A stretch of 64,000 nt of DNA from Herbidospora sakaeratensis (GTDB lineage Bacteria > Actinomycetota > Actinomycetes > Streptosporangiales > Streptosporangiaceae). Where the stretch lies: NCBI RefSeq assembly GCF_001570525.1, contig NZ_BBXC01000016.1:1-64000 (forward strand). Reading direction: 5' to 3'. The notes beneath the pieces are model-generated. The model was given only the letters and a program-made list of their open reading frames with translations. It had not been told where the DNA came from and did not search any database. This document shows, one piece after another, positions 1,724 to 9,733 of the stretch (within the stretch, counting starts at the first letter, position 1; every line of letters begins with the position of its first letter). Position numbers and translations under genes: made by a program.

Positions 1724-2173
1724 ATGGGCAACGTCGGACCCACCGAACTCCTCGTCCTGCTGATCCTCCTCGGCGTCATCGCCGGCATCGTCCTGCTGGC
1801 CGTCAGAGCCGCCGGCGGACGACCCCGCGCCCAAGTCGCCTACTGGGCGCCCGGCGTCATCCCGCAGATCGCCGAACCCATCCGCGACCGCGTCCGCGAC
1901 CTCGGCGCCGACGGCCGCATCCTGGAAGCGATCAAACTCGTCCGGCAGGAAACCGGCCTCGGCCTGCGCGACGCCAAGTTCGTCACCGAATCGATCATCG
2001 CCGGCCGCTACCTCCCCACCAGCACCGAACGCGCCCTCCAGACCGGGCCCGACCTGGCCGGGCGGGTCCGCGAACTCAAGGAGGCCGGGCGGACCGAGCA
2101 GGCGATCTTCCTGGTGCGCGGCGAGACCGGCATGAACCAGGAACAGGCCGAGGCGTTCGTGGGCCTCATCTGA
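1724..2173 (+). CDS. Membrane-anchored protein with two ribosomal L7/L12 C-terminal-like domains
   Basis: 149 residues. One N-terminal membrane helix (about 8-30) is followed by two copies of the L7/L12 C-terminal-domain signature: ILEAIKLVRQETGLGLRDAK at about 65-85 and EQAIFLVRGETGMNQEQAEA near the C-terminus. In ribosomal L7/L12 this small domain docks translation GTPases. Free-standing membrane-tethered versions are common in actinobacteria with no assigned function. It is not the ribosomal protein itself. A 43-bp exact copy of its membrane-helix coding sequence lies upstream. Confidence 0.8.
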   Translation: MGNVGPTELLVLLILLGVIAGIVLLAVRAAGGRPRAQVAYWAPGVIPQIAEPIRDRVRDLGADGRILEAIKLVRQETGLGLRDAKFVTESIIAGRYLPTSTERALQTGPDLAGRVRELKEAGRTEQAIFLVRGETGMNQEQAEAFVGLI

Positions 2174-2200
2174 GAACCCCCATATCGGGCAAAGATGTCT

Positions 2201-2240
2201 ATACCAGACAGAAGGTGAATTCTGTTTGGTATCCCATTTT
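2201..2240. terminator. Terminator hairpin between convergent genes
   Basis: A 13-bp stem (2201-2213 with 2220-2232, one G.T wobble) and a six-base loop, followed by CCCATTTTT. It separates the L7/L12-like gene from the minus-strand oxygenase gene and is AT-rich for this genome. Confidence 0.7.
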
Positions 2241-2311
2241 TGTCGTGTTGTGAGCTACTGATTGACCAGGCAGGTAGTCGAACCATGACGCACATGTCGA
2301 GCGAACTCTGA

Positions 2312-2935
2312 TCACATCCACGGCTCTTCATGGTCGGGAAGGGTCGTGCACCAGATCGCCAACGTGTAGCGGTCGCCGTCTTCGACGACGCCTACCTCAT
2401 GTTCGAACCGACGATCACACGGGAAAGCGACGAGGGTGCCCGCAGCCGGGATCACCTCCAGCTCGCGGGACGGGAAGCGCAGCGAACCTCCCGAATAGCC
2501 GCCGCCCGGGCCTGCTGAATTGAGATAGAGAATCGCGGCATGGCTTCGGTGAGGGGTGTGGTTGGGCTCCCATTTCTCGGCTACGCGACGCTCGTTGTCG
2601 GCGTGGAGGGGAACACGGTCACCGGCCCGCATTTCACTCAGGATGGTGCATTCCAGCCATAGGTCGTCGAGGCCGAAGAATTTGCTCAGTTCGGCAAGAA
2701 CGCGGGAGCGGATTCCTGCAACGGTGTCGTCACCGTGCTCCATCAGGGAGATTGCCGACATCTCCGAGCGCACCCGGGTGGTTCGCACCGTCGGGTCGCT
2801 CGTCTTGACTTCCCGGATTTGCTCGACGAGGCGGCCACACTCGGCTGCGGTCGTGAAGCCGGGCCTGATCATGATCTGCATGTTGGCCCCCACACATGGT
2901 TCCGCCAGGTCATGTGATGACGGTAAGTCGGACAC
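2312..2935 (-). CDS. 2OG-Fe(II) oxygenase, prolyl 4-hydroxylase-like
   Basis: 207 residues with the facial triad of Fe(II)/2-oxoglutarate dioxygenases: H111 and D113 (in PLHADNE), H179 (in FEHEV), and R189 (DRYTLAIW) for the 2OG carboxylate. The spacing and the YLN...GGSLRFP segment resemble the prolyl-4-hydroxylase (P4Hc) group, whose members hydroxylate proline or other residues in peptides. The start is uncertain: the first ATG lacks a ribosome binding site, and M19 (about 2881), preceded by GTGGGGGCC, is a good alternative. It is divergent from the DUF6065-peptide-oxygenase operon. Prolyl hydroxylation of the proline-rich peptide encoded at 3793 is an attractive but untested inference. 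Confidence 0.85.
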   Translation of the reverse strand: MSDLPSSHDLAEPCVGANMQIMIRPGFTTAAECGRLVEQIREVKTSDPTVRTTRVRSEMSAISLMEHGDDTVAGIRSRVLAELSKFFGLDDLWLECTILSEMRAGDRVPLHADNERRVAEKWEPNHTPHRSHAAILYLNSAGPGGGYSGGSLRFPSRELEVIPAAGTLVAFPCDRRFEHEVGVVEDGDRYTLAIWCTTLPDHEEPWM

Positions 2936-3040
2936 AGAGCCGGATCAAGCTCGCTTGGCAGGGGTTGCGTGCCCGTCCTTGACGCTGTCGGCCCCCCGTG
3001 CTCACAATCGCTGTACCGTTGCCACGGATTAGGAGAACGC

Positions 3041-3781
3041 GTGGACTTCTCCATGCGGCAGTTGACGGCCTACGCACTCGAGCCGCCTCATCTCCCCCTC
3101 GAACCCGCAGAAGTGTTTCGAGACTGGATGAACGGGACTCCCGATCGGTACGCGAACCGATGCCTGCCGATGCTCATCGCCAATCAGTACGGGTGGCACG
3201 TCCTCAACAGGGGGACGGTCCGCGTGGAATGGAATGGCGGCATCGACGCGGCCGACGTCTCTATCAGCGCTGATGGCTGGGACGACCCACCGATCTCGAA
3301 TTTCGGCAGCGGCATAGTGACCTGGCGAATCCCCTATCTGTTCAGGACGCCGCCGGGCTGGAATCTGCTTGTCCGCGGTCCGGCGAACCACATCAAGGGT
3401 GGTGCCGGCTCACTTGAGGGGATAGTCGAGACCGACTGGGCGATCACCCCCGCGTTCCATTCCTGGCGCCTGACCGACCCGGGCCGCACGGTTGTGTGGA
3501 CCGACGGCGAGCCGATCTGCTCGATCGTCCCGCAGCGGCGGAGCGATCTGGAGCGCTGGGACCCGATCCTGCGTGAGCTGGGGTCCGATCCGCAGCTCGC
3601 AGAGGAGTATCGCCGATTCGCCGAACGCCGCGCCGCGTTCAGCGCCGCCCATCCGACCGGCTGGGAGAAGGACTACTTTCTCGGCCGCCGGCCGGGCGGC
3701 GAGGTATCCGGCCCGGATGACCATCAGCGCAGGCTCCGCCTGCGTGCCTTCACTCCCGCCGTCGCCGACGGAACACAGTAA
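3041..3781 (+). CDS. DUF6065 family protein
   Basis: 246 residues from a GTG at 3041, preceded by AGGAGA at a good distance; an upstream ATG at 2969 has no such site. The N-terminal region has the DUF6065 hallmarks: P-L-x-P at about 20, YANRCLPMLIANQYGWHVLN, then SNFGSGIVTWRIPYLFRTPP and a charged C-terminal helix. The family has no known biochemical function to my knowledge. No membrane segment. Its stop codon overlaps the AAGGAG that serves the following peptide gene, so the two are tightly coupled. Next to two 2OG oxygenases and a short peptide, a role in peptide modification or substrate presentation is possible. Confidence 0.75.
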   Translation: MDFSMRQLTAYALEPPHLPLEPAEVFRDWMNGTPDRYANRCLPMLIANQYGWHVLNRGTVRVEWNGGIDAADVSISADGWDDPPISNFGSGIVTWRIPYLFRTPPGWNLLVRGPANHIKGGAGSLEGIVETDWAITPAFHSWRLTDPGRTVVWTDGEPICSIVPQRRSDLERWDPILRELGSDPQLAEEYRRFAERRAAFSAAHPTGWEKDYFLGRRPGGEVSGPDDHQRRLRLRAFTPAVADGTQ

Positions 3782-3792
3782 GGAGCTCTCTC

Positions 3793-3903
3793 ATGCCGAC
3801 TGATGAGACGACCGCCGAGGAGACTCCGGAGATCGCGGAGCCCGCCGTTCTCACCCCGGACGAGGTGAACCCGCCGCCTCCCCCGCCTGTCCCCACCCGC
3901 TAG
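3793..3903 (+). CDS. 36-residue acidic, proline-rich peptide; candidate RiPP precursor
   Basis: ATG preceded by AAGGAG at a 7-base spacing. The N-terminal two-thirds is acidic and Glu/Thr-rich (starts MPTDETTAEETPEIAE), like a leader region. The end is VNPPPPPPVPTR: six consecutive prolines, one more proline and a C-terminal arginine. The gene lies between DUF6065 and an arginine-hydroxylase-like oxygenase, with a prolyl-hydroxylase-like enzyme divergent upstream, so the C-terminus matches the residue types these enzyme families act on. A strong hairpin follows the stop. Ribosomal synthesis is well supported by the start signals; modification is inferred. No Cys, Ser or Lys is present for common RiPP chemistry. 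Confidence 0.6.
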   Translation: MPTDETTAEETPEIAEPAVLTPDEVNPPPPPPVPTR

Positions 3904-3912
3904 GCCGTGCCT

Positions 3913-3937
3913 CCCGTGGCGCAGCGCGCGCCACGGG
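3913..3937 (+). terminator. Intercistronic hairpin (attenuator) after the peptide gene
   Basis: A perfect 10-bp GC stem (3913-3922 with 3928-3937) and a five-base loop, 10 bases after the peptide stop and 24 bases before the next ATG. There is no T-tract. Partial termination or 3'-end protection here would raise peptide mRNA over enzyme mRNA, an arrangement usual for precursor peptide genes. Confidence 0.6.
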
Positions 3938-3960
3938 GGCCTACTACCGAGGAACGCCCC

Positions 3961-4923
3961 ATGGCCGGACCCTGCCGCCTGACCCTGTTGGACTGTGAGA
4001 TCGACGAGATCGGGGCGTTGCTGAGTGAGGTGGCGGCCCGTTATTCGTTCGTCGATGACACCGGTTTCCTCATGGAGGCCGAGCGGCTCGCCCACGGCCT
4101 CCCCCGACGGCTGCGGGCCTTCCTCGCTGAGTGCCGCGCTGCGGAGAGGCCGTTGTTCGTCATCGCGCGCTGGCCGGTCGACGATGCCGCATTGGGACTT
4201 ACTCCGCCGGACTGGCGAGCCGGCTGCGCCGACCACGAGTCGATCCACCGGCACCAGTTGCTGTTGGTGCTCGCCGCCTCGTTGCTCGGCGATCCGTTCA
4301 CTCTTTCCTCCGCTCAGGGGGGACACCTGGTCAACCACATCGTGCCGGTCGCTGGTGCCGAGCGGCAGATCAGCGCGGCCAGTAGCGAGGAGCTGGGCTG
4401 GCACACGGAGGAGGCCGGTTTCCGGTTCCGTCCCGACCATCTCGGCTTCATCTGCCTGCGTAACCCTCAGCGGGTGCCGATGATGATCGGACTGGCTGAC
4501 CATCTGGTCCTCGATCCCGCCGTCAGGGAGATCCTTCGCAGCCCTTTGTTCGGCATGCCGCAACTGGGGGCGGCTGAGCGAATCGAGTACGCGCCCGTCC
4601 TTTACGGCGATGTGGACCGACCTTATTTGAGTGCCGATTCGGTCTACATGGTGCCCGCGCCGGGTGACCGGGCCGCCGCGGAGGCCTGGGAGGTGCTGGG
4701 CGCGGCGATCGACACGGCCCTGCGTCCGTTCGTCATGGAGCCGGGCGACCTCTACTTTCTGGACAACCACCGGGCGGTCCACGGCCGCCCGGCGTTCCTT
4801 CCTCGGTACGACGGTGCCGACCGGTGGCTGCTGCGGGTCAAGATCGGCAGGGACCTGCGCGCTTCTCGTCCATATCGGGGCGGCGCAGGGACCCGCGTGA
4901 TCGATTTCGACCGGTTAGGCTGA
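3961..4923 (+). CDS. Clavaminate synthase/arginine beta-hydroxylase-like Fe(II)/2OG oxygenase (TauD/CAS superfamily)
   Basis: 320 residues from the ATG at 3961, preceded by GAGGAA. The metal triad has the His-x-Glu form typical of clavaminate synthase and VioC/OrfP-type L-arginine hydroxylases: H148-x-E150 (GWHTEEAGF) and H274 (FLDNHRAVHGR), with R288 or R292 (ADRWLLRV) for 2OG. Relatives hydroxylate free amino acids, especially arginine and lysine, at C-beta or C-gamma. Here the gene sits behind a peptide ending in Arg, so a peptide substrate is possible. Against this, CAS-like enzymes usually act on free amino acids. The trypco2 gene starts 39 bases downstream. Confidence 0.85.
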   Translation: MAGPCRLTLLDCEIDEIGALLSEVAARYSFVDDTGFLMEAERLAHGLPRRLRAFLAECRAAERPLFVIARWPVDDAALGLTPPDWRAGCADHESIHRHQLLLVLAASLLGDPFTLSSAQGGHLVNHIVPVAGAERQISAASSEELGWHTEEAGFRFRPDHLGFICLRNPQRVPMMIGLADHLVLDPAVREILRSPLFGMPQLGAAERIEYAPVLYGDVDRPYLSADSVYMVPAPGDRAAAEAWEVLGAAIDTALRPFVMEPGDLYFLDNHRAVHGRPAFLPRYDGADRWLLRVKIGRDLRASRPYRGGAGTRVIDFDRLG

Positions 4924-4962
4924 TGCGGCATTCAGGGGTTCTCGACATGAGGTGCGACGCCG

Positions 4963-5262
4963 ATGATCGAACTGCATGAGCTGATCCGCGATCTGCGTTC
5001 GGAATTGATGGAAGCGATGGCGGCCGCGCCCGAGGAAGGGCTGCAGTTCGAACTGGGTCCGATCGAGCTCGAAGTCAGCTTCGGCGTCGAGAAGAGCGGC
5101 GGCGGTGGGGCCAAGGTCAAGTTCTGGGTCGTCTCGCTTGAGTCCGAGGGGAAGGTGGCTGCGACGTCCTTGCAGAAAGTGACGTTGACACTGTCGCCGC
5201 GGACTGCCGGCTCCTCCGCTCCCCCGTATGTCTCCGGTCGTGAACGGCTGGGCGAGCGGTAG
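4963..5262 (+). CDS. Trypsin-co-occurring domain 2 (trypco2) protein
   Basis: 99 residues. An N-terminal helix (IELHELIRDLRSELMEAMAAA) is followed by strands LQFELGPIELEVSFGVEKSG and AKVKFWVVSLESEG, ending in QKVTLTLSP. This matches the trypco2 family, small proteins encoded next to trypsin-like/STAND proteins in predicted NTPase-dependent conflict systems. It probably acts as a partner or sensor of the adjacent protease. GAGGTG lies 8 bases before the ATG. Its 3' end overlaps the earliest start of the next gene. Confidence 0.8.
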   Translation: MIELHELIRDLRSELMEAMAAAPEEGLQFELGPIELEVSFGVEKSGGGGAKVKFWVVSLESEGKVAATSLQKVTLTLSPRTAGSSAPPYVSGRERLGER

Positions 5263-8200
5263 CTCCGTGCCCTCGACGGTCGGACGAATGGGACGCGCGC
5301 GAGGCCATGGGCTCGATCCGCACAGCGCCGCTGAGATCATCACGGTGCTGCCGGACGGTTCTCGGCGCAGGGGCTCCGGCTACCGGGTCTCGGCGACGGC
5401 GGTTCTCACCGCAGCCCATGTCGTCGTCGGCGCCGAGACGGTCACGGTACGGTTCGACGCGGACCGTTCCGATGAAACGGTGGGCCCCGCGACCGTCGCC
5501 TGGCTTGACGAGACCATCGATGTCGCCGTCCTCGAAGGCGCCTGGCCGCTCCCGGGAGGCGCTGCGCGCGTCGTGCGCTACGGCTGGGTGGACGACGTGG
5601 ACACGGTCTTGTCCTGTTCTTCCGTCGGGTTCCCGCGCCACAAACTCCGTCAGGCGGCCGATGGCTGGTATCGCGACTCCAGCCACGTACACGGCACGAT
5701 CTCGGCGCTGTCGCACCGCCGCGAGGGGACGCTGGAGATTCGCGTCGGACCGCCGGACAGTGACCCCGACCCGAGCATCTCCCCGTGGGAGGGGATGTCG
5801 GGATCTGCCGTGTTCGCTCGTGGGGTCTTCATCGGCATGGTCTCGCGTCACCATCGTTCTGACGGCCTCGGCGTGCTGACCGCGACCCGGGTCGACGGCT
5901 GGCTTACCCGGCATGACCGTGGGCTGCTGGCCGGGCTGTGCGCGTTGACCGGCCTGCCGTCCGCCCCTGAGGAGCTCGTCGACGTCCTGGGTGAACTGGG
6001 CGACGCGGAGGCCGCGGTGCTCGCGCCGGTCGCGCCGTCGCGGACGGTCTTTCTCTCCTACGAGGTGCACGACCGTGCTTCCGCCGACCAGGTGGCGCGG
6101 CTGCTGATGCGGCACAGTATTCGTTCTCTCACCGATCCGGCGTCGTCGGCCGACGATCCGCTCGGCGGGTCGTTGGAGCAGACCGAAGCGGTCGCTGTGC
6201 TCGTGGGGCCCGAGGGCATCACCGGCGAACGCTCGGCCAGCATCCGCGCGGCCGTCGAATACGCCAGCCGTGAGCGCAGCAACCTGCGCATCGTGCCGAT
6301 CCTGCTGCCCGGCGCCTCCGCGCGACTGCTCCCGGCGTTTCTGTCCCGGCAGCTCGCGGTGGACCTCCACACCGCTCTGGGGCAGCCGCGCACGAGAGCG
6401 GAGCTGGTCGCCACCGTAGAGGGCCTGGCTCCCGAGAGGTCGCAGACGACGCTGCCGGATGATCCGGCGCCGTTTCCGAGCCTGCGCGCTTTCACTTCCA
6501 CCGAGGCGTCGTTGTTCTTCGGCCGCTCCGCCGAGACCGCGCGGCTGGTTGATCGGGTGCGTGGTGCGTCCTTCACCGCGGTGGTCGGCGCCTCGGGCTC
6601 GGGCAAGTCGTCCTTGGTGATGGCGGGGCTGGTGCCCGCCGTCGGGGAGCGGACCGAAGTGGTGACGTTGGTGCCCGGACCATGGCCGATCCGTGCGCTC
6701 GCCGCCCGGATCGCCGCGCTGGTGCCTGAGAACGAGCGGCCGAGCCCGAGCGTGCTCGAACGGCAGTTGCTGACCGACCCCGACGAGCTCGGCAAACTCC
6801 TGCATGATCTGGTCGCCGCCGACGATCGAACCGACCGGGTGTTGCTCATCGTCGACCAGTTCGAGGAGGTGTTCACCCTCAAGCCGCCGCAGCGGGGCGA
6901 CGTCGACGCGCAGCTGCACTTCATCCAGAGCCTTCATCGCATCGCCGAATCCCGGTCCGACGCGGTCCGCGTCGTGATCACGCTCCGCGCCGACTTCGTC
7001 CAGCACTGCCTCGCCTTCGCCGAACTCCGCGAACTGCTGGCCGCCGACCAGCTGCTGCTCGGACCGCTCGACGACCCTTCTTTGCGCGAAGCGATGCTGA
7101 TGCCCGCGCAGCACGTCGGCGCGCTGTTCGAGCGCGGCTTGGTCGACCGGGTCCTGGTCGACATGCGAGGCCGGTCCGGCGCGCTGCCCCTGCTGCAGAC
7201 CGCGCTCGCGGCGTTGTGGCGGCGGCGTCGCGGCGTGTGGCTCACCCACGCGGACTACGATGCCGTCGGCGGCATCGGTGGCGCGCTGAACCAACTGGCC
7301 AACGACACCTATGCAGGGCTCAGCGAGCGCCAACGGGAGCTCGCCCGGCTGATGTTTCTGAGGTTGGTGGCCGTCCGTGAGGGCGCTTACACCCGGCGGC
7401 GGGTCCCCCGGCACGAGCTCGACCTCGTCGCGGCCGATCCGCGGGAGATCGAGCAGGTCATCCTCACGTTGTCCCATCGTGACGCCCGGCTGATCGCCGC
7501 CGGTCACGACACGGTGGAAATCGTCCATGAGGCGCTGATCGACAACTGGGACACGCTCATCGCCTGGTTGCAGCAAGACGCCGCGGACTTGCGCACCCAC
7601 CGGCTGCTCACGGAGGCTGCGCAGGAGTGGGCCGATCACGAACGTGAGGACAGCTACCTCTACCGCGGGCTGCGTCTGGCGGCCGCGAGCGACTGGGCCA
7701 CCCGCAACGCAGGGCTCCTGAGCAGGCTGGAGGATGTCTTCCTGACCTCCAGCCGTACCGCGCAGGACACTGCGGTGGCGCGTGAGCAGTCCGATCGGAC
7801 CCTCGCCCGCGCCGGGCAGGCCATGTTCGAGCTGGAGGCGGCGCCGGAACAGGCGCTGAGGTTAGCGCTCCAGGCCGCAGACGACGGCGGCGATATCCCG
7901 CTGGTGCAGCGAACGATGTTCCGGGTCTTCAACGAGGCACGGGTGCGCCGCATCCTGCGGGGCCACTCCGACCGGTTGTCGGGGGTGGCCTGGCATCCTG
8001 ACGGCCGCCTGGCGGCCACCGCCAGTTACGACGGCACGATCCGGCTGTGGGACGCGGCCGAGGGTCGTCTTCTGACGGTCATCGAGGCGGGCCAGGACTG
8101 CGTGACGTGCCTCGACTTCGACGCCGACGGGACTCGCCTTGTGAGCGGCGGCTGGGACGGCACCGCTGGGATCTGGGACGTCGGGAGCGGACGGAGCGTC

Positions 8201-9733
8201 AGTAGGCTGAGGGGCCATACCGACTGGGTGTCGTCGGTGAGGTGGAGCCCAGACGGCCGGTTCGCGGTGACGGGAAGCCTGGACACCACGGCCCGCATAT
8301 GGGACGTCTGTGCGGGAACGACGATCCGCACGCTGGAGGGGCACAGCGACTGGGTGCGCTCGGCCGAGTGGCATCCGGACGGCACACGGATCTGCACCGG
8401 TAGCTATGACACCACCGCCGCGGTCTGGGATGTGGAGACCGGGGAACGGCTCTCGACGTTGCGGCAGCACGAAGGGCCGGTGCCGGCGGTCGCGTGGAGC
8501 GCCGAGGGGACCGAACTGCTCACCGCGAGCGAGGATGGAAGTGTCGTCCTGTGGGATGCCGAGCACTTCACTCCGGTCCGCCGTATGTCGGTGACCTCGA
8601 CCCCGCTCTACGGAGTCGGCTGGTCGCCGGCTGAGCGGCGGGCGGCCGTGTGCGGGGAGGACGGCCGGGTCCGCTTGCTCGACGTCGACCTCGGGCAGAC
8701 CGTTGACACGCTGCCCGGCCACGTGGGCTGGGCCTCTGGAGTGGCGTGGAGCCCTGGCGGGCATCTGCTGCTGTCCGGGAGCGAGGACGCCACCGCCCGC
8801 GTCACCGCCGTGGACGAAGGTTTCGTGGCACGAATCGCCGGTCGGCACGAAGGCCGGGTGCTCAGTGTCGCCTGGCATCCCGACCAGGAGAGGATCGCAT
8901 CAGCGGGCCAAGACGAACGGGTGCGAATCTGGGACACCAAACACGGCGGCCCGCCGACGGAGCTCCTGACGGACGCCGTCGCCGTCGCGTGGAGCCCGAA
9001 CGGCCATAGCCTCGCCATCGGAGGCGACGACGGGTCGGTCAGCATCCGCGACTCTCTCACGTTCGCCGTGGACGCCACCGTTCACGGGCACCAGGGCAGG
9101 GTCACCTCGGTCCGCTGGAGTCCCGACGGGCTGCTCCTGGCTTCCGCCGGCAGCGACGGCTCGGTGACGATCTGGGCGGCCGACGGCCTGCGAGAGCGCT
9201 GGCGGCTTTCGGGTGACCAACTCGTCGAGGACCTGGCGTGGAGCCCGACGGGCGAGCACGTCGCCGTCGCGGACTGGAACACGGAGGCGCGCGTCTGGCA
9301 GCCCGGCGCCGACGCCGATCCTGTCCGGCTTCCCGCCCACACCGCACCGCTGCACGCGATCGACTGGAGTCGCAGCGGCCGCTACCTGCTCACGTCGAGT
9401 GGCGACGGTACCGCTCGCCTGTGGGACACCCACGACCGCCGACCGGTCCTGCGGCTGGCGACCGGCGAGTCGCACGCCGCACGCTTCAACCCGATCTACA
9501 CCCAGGTCGCCACCGGAAGCCAGGACGGCGGCGTCCGGCTGTGGAACTACGCCGACAGCGGCGACCTGCTCGTCACCTACGCCCACCCGGGCGCGGTGTG
9601 GTCACTGGCCTTCCGTCCCGATGGCGGCGAGTTGGCGACCGGCTGCGAAGACGGCGCCGTTCGCGTCTGGCTCACCAGCCCGCAGACCATCCACGCCGCC
9701 CTGCGCCAACGCGTGGCTGATCTTTCGGCCTGA
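5228..9733 (+). CDS. Trypsin-like protease - TIR - STAND NTPase - WD40 conflict-system protein
   Basis: 1,501 residues. (1) Trypsin-like domain at about 35-225, with H64 (TAAHV), D98 (IDVAVLE) and S191 (GMSGSAV). (2) TIR-like domain at about 268-390, opening with RTVFLSYEVHDRASADQVA. (3) STAND NTPase with Walker A GASGSGKSS at about 453-461 and Walker B LLIVDQFEEVF near 540, followed by helical repeats to about 850. (4) 14 WD40 repeats from about 905 to 1490, enough for two seven-bladed propellers. Expected logic: the propellers sense, the STAND module switches on NTP binding, and the protease (perhaps with TIR) is the effector. The start is uncertain; GTG 5267 or ATG 5288 in the same frame would avoid the 35-bp overlap with trypco2. 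Confidence 0.9.
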   Translation: MSPVVNGWASGSSVPSTVGRMGRARGHGLDPHSAAEIITVLPDGSRRRGSGYRVSATAVLTAAHVVVGAETVTVRFDADRSDETVGPATVAWLDETIDVAVLEGAWPLPGGAARVVRYGWVDDVDTVLSCSSVGFPRHKLRQAADGWYRDSSHVHGTISALSHRREGTLEIRVGPPDSDPDPSISPWEGMSGSAVFARGVFIGMVSRHHRSDGLGVLTATRVDGWLTRHDRGLLAGLCALTGLPSAPEELVDVLGELGDAEAAVLAPVAPSRTVFLSYEVHDRASADQVARLLMRHSIRSLTDPASSADDPLGGSLEQTEAVAVLVGPEGITGERSASIRAAVEYASRERSNLRIVPILLPGASARLLPAFLSRQLAVDLHTALGQPRTRAELVATVEGLAPERSQTTLPDDPAPFPSLRAFTSTEASLFFGRSAETARLVDRVRGASFTAVVGASGSGKSSLVMAGLVPAVGERTEVVTLVPGPWPIRALAARIAALVPENERPSPSVLERQLLTDPDELGKLLHDLVAADDRTDRVLLIVDQFEEVFTLKPPQRGDVDAQLHFIQSLHRIAESRSDAVRVVITLRADFVQHCLAFAELRELLAADQLLLGPLDDPSLREAMLMPAQHVGALFERGLVDRVLVDMRGRSGALPLLQTALAALWRRRRGVWLTHADYDAVGGIGGALNQLANDTYAGLSERQRELARLMFLRLVAVREGAYTRRRVPRHELDLVAADPREIEQVILTLSHRDARLIAAGHDTVEIVHEALIDNWDTLIAWLQQDAADLRTHRLLTEAAQEWADHEREDSYLYRGLRLAAASDWATRNAGLLSRLEDVFLTSSRTAQDTAVAREQSDRTLARAGQAMFELEAAPEQALRLALQAADDGGDIPLVQRTMFRVFNEARVRRILRGHSDRLSGVAWHPDGRLAATASYDGTIRLWDAAEGRLLTVIEAGQDCVTCLDFDADGTRLVSGGWDGTAGIWDVGSGRSVSRLRGHTDWVSSVRWSPDGRFAVTGSLDTTARIWDVCAGTTIRTLEGHSDWVRSAEWHPDGTRICTGSYDTTAAVWDVETGERLSTLRQHEGPVPAVAWSAEGTELLTASEDGSVVLWDAEHFTPVRRMSVTSTPLYGVGWSPAERRAAVCGEDGRVRLLDVDLGQTVDTLPGHVGWASGVAWSPGGHLLLSGSEDATARVTAVDEGFVARIAGRHEGRVLSVAWHPDQERIASAGQDERVRIWDTKHGGPPTELLTDAVAVAWSPNGHSLAIGGDDGSVSIRDSLTFAVDATVHGHQGRVTSVRWSPDGLLLASAGSDGSVTIWAADGLRERWRLSGDQLVEDLAWSPTGEHVAVADWNTEARVWQPGADADPVRLPAHTAPLHAIDWSRSGRYLLTSSGDGTARLWDTHDRRPVLRLATGESHAARFNPIYTQVATGSQDGGVRLWNYADSGDLLVTYAHPGAVWSLAFRPDGGELATGCEDGAVRVWLTSPQTIHAALRQRVADLSA

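Follow-up and report, generated by a model that had tools for sequence, protein, structure and literature searches.

What is a gene of only 36 codons, whose product ends in PPPPPPVPTR, doing between a DUF6065 gene and the gene of a 2-oxoglutarate (2OG)-Fe(II) oxygenase, ahead of the gene of a STAND-type conflict protein? The genes in question occupy positions 2312 to 9733 of the window, by which we mean the whole 64,000-nucleotide stretch of Herbidospora sakaeratensis DNA that was analysed. Our answer, to which we assign a probability of roughly 50%, is that the product of the short gene is a ribosomal peptide, acidic in its N-terminal part, whose tail consists of a proline run and an arginine. 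A prolyl-4-hydroxylase-like (P4H-like) oxygenase, aided by the DUF6065 protein, would most likely hydroxylate the tail prolines, and a VioC-like oxygenase would most likely modify the C-terminal Arg or a nearby residue. The product would then serve the Trypco2/trypsin-TIR-nSTAND1-WD40 system, perhaps in defence, as a signal or as a releasable effector, and it may be set free by a cleavage that involves the trypsin domain of the STAND protein.

The peptide gene and its conserved neighbourhood

A sequence-only reading had described 2312..4923 as a four-gene locus resembling those of ribosomally synthesized and post-translationally modified peptides (RiPPs), and open reading frame (ORF) calls together with matches to PF13640, PF19541 and PF02668 bear out its genes and their families. 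These are the P4H-like 2OG-Fe(II) oxygenase (2312..2935, minus strand, divergent from the other genes; PF13640, E 9.6e-12), the DUF6065 protein (3041..3781, plus strand like all genes that follow, with a GTG start and AGGAG upstream; PF19541, E 6.9e-73), the peptide (3793..3903) and the VioC/GntD-like 2OG-Fe(II) oxygenase (3961..4923, best read from the ATG at 3961; PF02668, E 3.3e-10). The borders, however, stop short of two genes that are part of the unit, namely that of a Trypco2 protein (4963..5262; PF19631, E 1.1e-27) and an overlapping 1501-residue ORF (5228..9733) for the STAND protein.

The ATG of the peptide gene lies 11 bases past the DUF6065 stop codon and has its own AAGGAG ribosome site, and the encoded peptide is MPTDETTAEETPEIAEPAVLTPDEVNPPPPPPVPTR. 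Its proline codons are mixed and not uniform, which argues against a plain DNA repeat. The arrangement recurs in a second genome, G303, of a different genus in the same family, in which (contig C21, locus L112) the peptide, the VioC-like enzyme (68% identity), the Trypco2 protein (74%) and the STAND protein (73%) follow one another as in the window. The G303 peptide ORF (L112:9441-9635) encodes 64 residues, MPNDETSPRTPVEAAGPGGVPTRGRTMRFPPQPPPRPAPPSPTTPRPTPPPPPPPPPPPPPPVR, and ends in PPVR; both peptides have MPxDET at the N-terminus and, at the other end, a Pro run together with Val and Arg. The ORF, which has a good ribosome site in the window, is kept with the VioC-like gene, the Pro run and the C-terminal Arg, and on these sequence comparisons it can be regarded as a real gene beyond chance. 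Neither peptide matches a Pfam or NCBIfam family, and no leader or precursor family was recognisable in them; the RiPP-type arrangement of a short precursor gene that adjoins modifying-enzyme genes and is kept together with them is nevertheless present in both genomes, and in these two only. Because peptide and VioC-like gene recur in G303 without DUF6065 or P4H, they appear to be the conserved core, linked to a conflict-type NTPase, and DUF6065 and P4H an add-on. The four genes thus are not one indivisible cassette, although each half of the proposed locus is found again, the peptide/VioC-like half in G303 and the DUF6065/P4H-subtype half in unrelated phyla (loci L022 and L004).

A short ORF ahead of an enzyme gene could in principle also be a regulatory leader and not a substrate, with the Pro run stalling the ribosome and, together with a hairpin, setting the expression of the VioC-like gene. 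Pro runs slow translation, in both genomes the VioC-like gene comes after the ORF, and a hairpin, possibly an attenuator, is predicted between the two genes in the window (3909..3940, plus strand) as well as in G303. Its z-scores are weak, however (-1.82 in the window and -1.21 in L112, with 9/200 and 22/200 shuffles folding as well or better), and the C-terminal Arg and the N-terminal MPxDET are kept despite lengths of 36 and 64 residues. Elsewhere, moreover, the Pro-run ORF stands either before DUF6065 (L008, L048) or after a gene resembling hydroxyproline arabinosyltransferase (HPAT; L047, L062), and therefore has no single position. We regard a purely regulatory role as quite improbable.

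How far does the core extend? Scoring only the best candidates per genome (for VioC six in the order, five in the class and seven in the order of genome G610, and 14 for Trypco2), so that weaker copies could be missed, we found VioC-like genes in 79 of 345 genomes of the order (E 1e-20) and Trypco2 in 50 of 342 (E 1e-8), and the two lie at most 10 kb apart only in the window genome (G000) and in G303, both of which carry the peptide. With the Pro-run filter, no third peptide-VioC case was found in 394 genomes of the class and 293 genomes of G610's order, where the best VioC-like relative, the window's own aside, scored 222.8 bits; a looser Pro-run pattern, applied to the plus strand only, gave seven matches (two and five) in these VioC-like flanks, none of which was kept by the strict filter. 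The gene contexts inspected were those of 10 loci among the 29 of L149-L177 and of 13 among the 21 of L178-L198.

The STAND protein matches Trypsin_2 (PF13365, E 4.2e-13), TIR_2 (E 4.6e-8), nSTAND1 (E 1.9e-109) and, in 11 stretches, WD40; as PF19631 and PF13365 are both over cut-off in adjoining genes, the block has the composition of a Trypco2-trypsin conflict system. With PADLOC, the STAND protein was matched in part only. It might be argued that this pair alone is the functional unit and that the peptide and the oxygenases are passengers, since none of the 28 other Trypco2 loci of the order (L115-L142) holds a Pro-run ORF that passes the strict filter, the many matches of the looser pattern being judged noise. 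Against this stands the one order that the peptide and VioC-like genes keep with the STAND block in two genera, and in Ktedonobacter a Pro-run peptide and DUF6065 again adjoin conflict-type genes, so that passengers seem an unlikely explanation. In genome G341, a radical-SAM gene (L143:8326-9378) lies divergent from a Trypco2-trypsin gene pair; no peptide was recognised there, and the locus was set aside.

The VioC-like enzyme and the residue it may modify

The VioC-like enzyme scores 284.5 bits with the NCBIfam model of GntD (cut-off 345) and 260.3 bits with that of VioC (cut-off 418.6) and thus reaches no curated name, and solved VioC structures match it with E 7.3e-57. Its iron ligands (H148xE150 and H274, the HxE..H triad reported from the sequence) and the 2OG-binding Arg are kept as in VioC-type enzymes, and so is the Arg for the substrate carboxylate. 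According to PMC6224419, Gln137 of VioC binds the alpha-amine, and Gln or Glu is found there in most groups of the enzyme family; guanidine and carboxylate contacts are those assigned from CmnC (PMC9513391). The Gln137 position is Ala in the window enzyme and Thr in the G303 enzyme, and in both the Asp268 position is kept and the Asp270 position is Val. The window enzyme thus has neither the Gln/Glu at the amine contact nor the complete pair of guanidine-binding Asp residues, and the specificity for Arg is weaker than the sequence-only reading had assumed. Among 65 relatives (those of at least 270 residues out of 85 aligned rows), the Gln137 position is Leu in 26, Gln in 22, Glu in 16 and Ile in one. 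The combination of Ala or Thr at the amine position with a kept carboxylate Arg fits a C-terminal peptidyl residue, the amine of which would be held in a peptide bond, while it proves neither Arg nor a peptide as substrate.

The same enzyme might instead hydroxylate a free amino acid in small-molecule metabolism and be an incidental neighbour, in which case only DUF6065 and P4H, if any, would act on the peptide. Its closest named relatives hydroxylate, by their names, free Arg or enduracididine, and many relatives adjoin ORFs that by eye, without family search, resemble nonribosomal peptide synthetases (NRPS) or aminotransferases. Yet peptide and enzyme occur together on a G303 contig that holds neither DUF6065 nor P4H, nothing of the NRPS or capreomycidine type was recognised among the genes of the block, and the alpha-amine contact position is Ala or Thr, which in sum makes a free amino acid a rather unlikely substrate. 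For the peptide-modifying enzyme that we prefer, VioC, OrfP, CmnC and GntD remain the closest models: they share with it the sequence family, the iron and 2OG ligands, the carboxylate Arg and the first guanidine Asp, whereas scores below the curated cut-offs, the altered amine contact and second Asp, and the neighbouring peptide gene set the window enzyme apart.

P4H, DUF6065 and their partners in distant bacteria

The P4H-like protein has H111xD113, H179 and R189 in its 2OG-FeII_Oxy_3 domain, so that the HxD..H..R motif is as intact as had been noted before, and we take this to be the catalytic motif of the prolyl-hydroxylase type. Its closest solved relative is prolyl 3-hydroxylase 1 (E 1.2e-6). 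The protein (2312-2935) also reaches 52.5 bits with PADLOC's Cas-associated '2OG' model. Of the 40 non-mycobacterial DUF6065 loci, 37 had their genomes searched for relatives of the window P4H; two of these genomes have them, at positions that agree with L022, where the enzyme is fused to DUF6065, and with L004, where it is the neighbour.

For DUF6065 itself, a model for which the window sequence and 43 of the 84 matched ranges were used resembles dUTPase, and the Foldseek matches listed are dUTPases, which points to a dUTPase-like fold; an hhalign comparison gave a probability of 16.7% (E 0.0015) over 60 columns only, and a profile search of solved structures with DUF6065 found no dUTPase. 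DUF6065 as a further oxygenase was rejected because the listed model matches are dUTPases, with the reservation that a low-ranked Foldseek fold could be missed. Within the order, DUF6065 is rare (1 of 100 relatives; 2 of 342 genomes), and in the second genome, G302, it consists of a 47-position match, over cut-off, with which an otherwise dissimilar ORF begins.

From 136 DUF6065 relatives, 80 loci were kept, 40 of them mycobacterial by title. The neighbour scan of the non-mycobacterial loci covered 121 proteins, 120 of them from 150 genes of a crude caller (about 30 were dropped), with the top 25 families listed; the Pfam scan of mycobacterial neighbours covered two L013 genes, and home-made profiles and Pro-run filters covered the mycobacterial loci too. 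A 2OG hydroxylase is fused to or near DUF6065 in 9 of the 80 loci, in addition to the window, and four of these are fusions, with the window-type P4H in L022 (PF19541 and PF13640) and with a Cupin_8/JmjC-type hydroxylase in L064, L079 and L080. In L004 the window-type P4H adjoins DUF6065, and Cupin_8 or JmjC-type genes lie nearby in L018, L032, L061 and L068. Directly behind the fusion gene of L080 there is a gene of the protein O-mannosyltransferase family (PF02366; L080:9479-10828).

Pro-run peptides recur as well. Both strands of 1.19 Mb of DUF6065 loci, the window included, and of 0.52 Mb of other loci, which in part duplicate the region described here, were filtered for short ORFs that have a ribosome site and a Pro-run tail. 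This gave six ORFs besides the window gene and its G303 relative (several copies from overlapping loci); we judge those of L004, L008 and L048 to be true relatives, and those of L064, L072 and L112:2900-3025 look like chance. The L008 ORF, 83 bases before the DUF6065 match and with the gene of a TOMM YcaO protein behind, encodes a precursor whose leader is of the NHLP type (80.5 bits, against a cut-off of 50.9) and whose core contains APPSPSAPPPPPPPPTYTGWY (PPPPPPPP). In L048, from Ktedonobacter, the peptide MYSTILLASWNPGPALTPLQPPRPIPTVPPPPRPAPTIPPPPPPRPR, ending in PPPPPPRPR, stands before DUF6065 and behind EACC1/caspase-type genes, whose matches are below cut-off (EACC1 23.2 bits, cut-off 23.6; EACC1-type caspase 88.9 bits, cut-off 140). 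The L004 ORF has 83 residues, ends in PPPPPPPSSCWS and lies in a YcaO locus 6.5 kb from DUF6065. In planctomycete loci, Pro-run ORFs with a weaker or no ribosome site adjoin HPAT-like genes: a 24-residue ORF ending in Arg follows such a gene in L047, and an extensin-like ORF (MSYSPPPYSPP...) does so in L062.

HPAT (PF23452) is over cut-off in L029 (E 1.5e-24) and L047 (E 1.8e-6) and below it in L062 (E 0.0011), yet against a profile made from only the L047 gene the L062 protein reaches 394 bits. In the 37 genomes mentioned above, HPAT matched in two, once each, at positions consistent with the genes next to DUF6065 in L029 and L047. Further glycosyltransferases near DUF6065 are RGP in L029 (E 7.4e-48), GT7 in L022, and GT_PLOD and GT25 in L071. 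Home-made HPAT, RGP, PLOD, GT7 and GT25 profiles matched no other locus, a narrow control as the other loci are mostly actinobacterial, and HPAT had no match in the window genome and G303 in a search without any positive match anywhere. In L029, four co-directional genes (2763-5981) encode an HPAT homologue, a PqqD-domain protein with a Pro-rich tail, an RGP/UDP-arabinose mutase homologue and DUF6065, which looks like a bacterial hydroxyproline-arabinosylation operon.

Other DUF6065 neighbours are of different kinds. A short ORF resembling, by eye, a lasso-peptide precursor adjoins DUF6065 in an actinomycete metagenome-assembled genome (L010:8836-9054, minus strand); CbbQ/NorQ-type AAA+ and VWA genes lie just upstream in a Mycobacterium (L013:5219-7746); on pSymA of S. 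meliloti, the ORFs directly upstream are of the autotransporter type and have long Pro runs in several frames (L200:3010-5738); and in four mycobacterial loci (L006, L015, L037, L038) a long ORF that has a Pro run in its interior is found 2.3-2.4 kb away. Longer Pro-rich ORFs, as in L022, L071 and L200, were excluded from the count of partners. By this count, a hydroxylase, Pro-run peptide or glycosyltransferase accompanies DUF6065 in 15 of the 80 loci (L004, L008, L018, L022, L029, L032, L047, L048, L061, L062, L064, L068, L071, L079, L080).

The search that the sequence-only reading had suggested, for Pro-run/Arg ORFs among DUF6065 neighbours, did yield Pro-run peptides, one of them over a curated RiPP-precursor cut-off (L008), but not an enriched Pro-run density. 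Runs of at least six CCN codons are as frequent within 2.5 kb of DUF6065 (6 in 450 kb) as farther away (10 in 743 kb), close to the value of control loci (5 in 479 kb), and the density was rejected as proof of a DUF6065 link. This is one of several points that weigh against the peptide pathway as we propose it. No recognised partner was found in 65 of the 80 DUF6065 loci, including all 40 mycobacterial ones; the peptide-VioC core is found in two genomes only; neither DUF6065 nor P4H was matched in the 29.0 kb examined of the 29.5-kb G303 contig, and as no P4H relative was found in the G303 genome at E 1e-3 either, this P4H cannot be what hydroxylates prolines throughout the peptide family. In the VioC-like enzyme, the second guanidine Asp is Val, and since the amine position is Leu in 26 of the 65 relatives, the loss of the amine contact is not diagnostic. 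Finally, the chemistry proposed here is a prediction from genes.

Known systems and biological meaning

Which known systems come closest? Kaur et al. (2020, PMC7159879) describe FxSxx-COOH-type peptide systems that are coupled to NTPase conflict systems, with C-terminal motifs of the FxSxx, RxD or acidic type, and name Trypco2 and EACC1 in the same paper. The plan is alike in that the peptide is short and variable, keeps its C-terminus and is linked genetically to an NTPase conflict module of actinobacteria. None of these C-terminal motifs is present here, as the window peptide ends in VPTR and that of G303 in PPVR: the tail is a Pro run with Arg, and the tailoring would be done by 2OG oxygenases, whereas a metallopeptidase/radical-SAM gene was not recognised in the block. 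No such gene was among the Pfam matches listed for the seven genes at 1724-9733 (for the STAND protein, 25 of 59 families); elsewhere in the window, the Pfam scan covered two genes. The main text of the same paper contains no words starting with proline or hydroxyl, nor 2-oxoglutarate or RiPP.

RiPP clusters such as those of the NHLP/TOMM type share the small gene that adjoins dedicated modifying enzymes, and the DUF6065 neighbour in L008 is itself an NHLP precursor with a poly-Pro core, but no exporter, maturase or known leader motif was recognised among the genes of the block. With plant hydroxyproline-rich peptides and extensins, the locus has in common the putative Pro-run substrate and the prolyl-hydroxylase-like enzyme, and HPAT and RGP homologues are found in other DUF6065 loci; in contrast to these plant systems with HPAT and UDP-arabinose mutase, the window system is bacterial, and any sugar or hydroxyproline in it is hypothetical. 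In full-text literature searches, DUF6065 was not named, combinations of RiPP, 2OG and hydroxyproline terms were mostly without match, and ribosomally synthesized with arginine hydroxylase and 2-oxoglutarate had none. A query for RiPPs with prolyl hydroxylase and precursor peptide had plant RiPP and mRNA-display reviews among the matches listed, and the matches for a polyproline RiPP gene cluster were off topic by title. No bacterial HPAT was among the matches listed, judged by title and start of the abstract, their topics being plants, algae and plant-microbe relations, without planctomycetes.

A wider interpretation, which we offer tentatively and which is less probable than the proposal for the window, would be that DUF6065 is the mark of a bacterial pathway, widespread and so far undescribed, that makes hydroxyproline-rich peptides. 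It would consist of Pro-run ribosomal peptides and prolyl or JmjC-type 2OG hydroxylases that adjoin DUF6065, as a partner of dUTPase fold, or are fused to it, joined in some phyla by plant-like HPAT and UDP-arabinose mutase as a counterpart of extensin/CLE-type chemistry, and the window would be a branch in which an added Arg-tail hydroxylase helps to supply the peptide of a STAND immune-like system.

In its plan, the locus thus resembles the FxSxx-type systems tied to conflict NTPases, with a chemistry that would be different, and the loci that resemble it in distant bacteria hint at a family of modified proline-rich peptides that has not been described before. If the proposal is true, it would provide the first functional lead for DUF6065 and define a class of peptides that owe their maturation to 2OG oxygenases and are linked to a STAND conflict system; it would also be evidence for hydroxyproline-peptide chemistry, HPAT homologues included, in bacteria.

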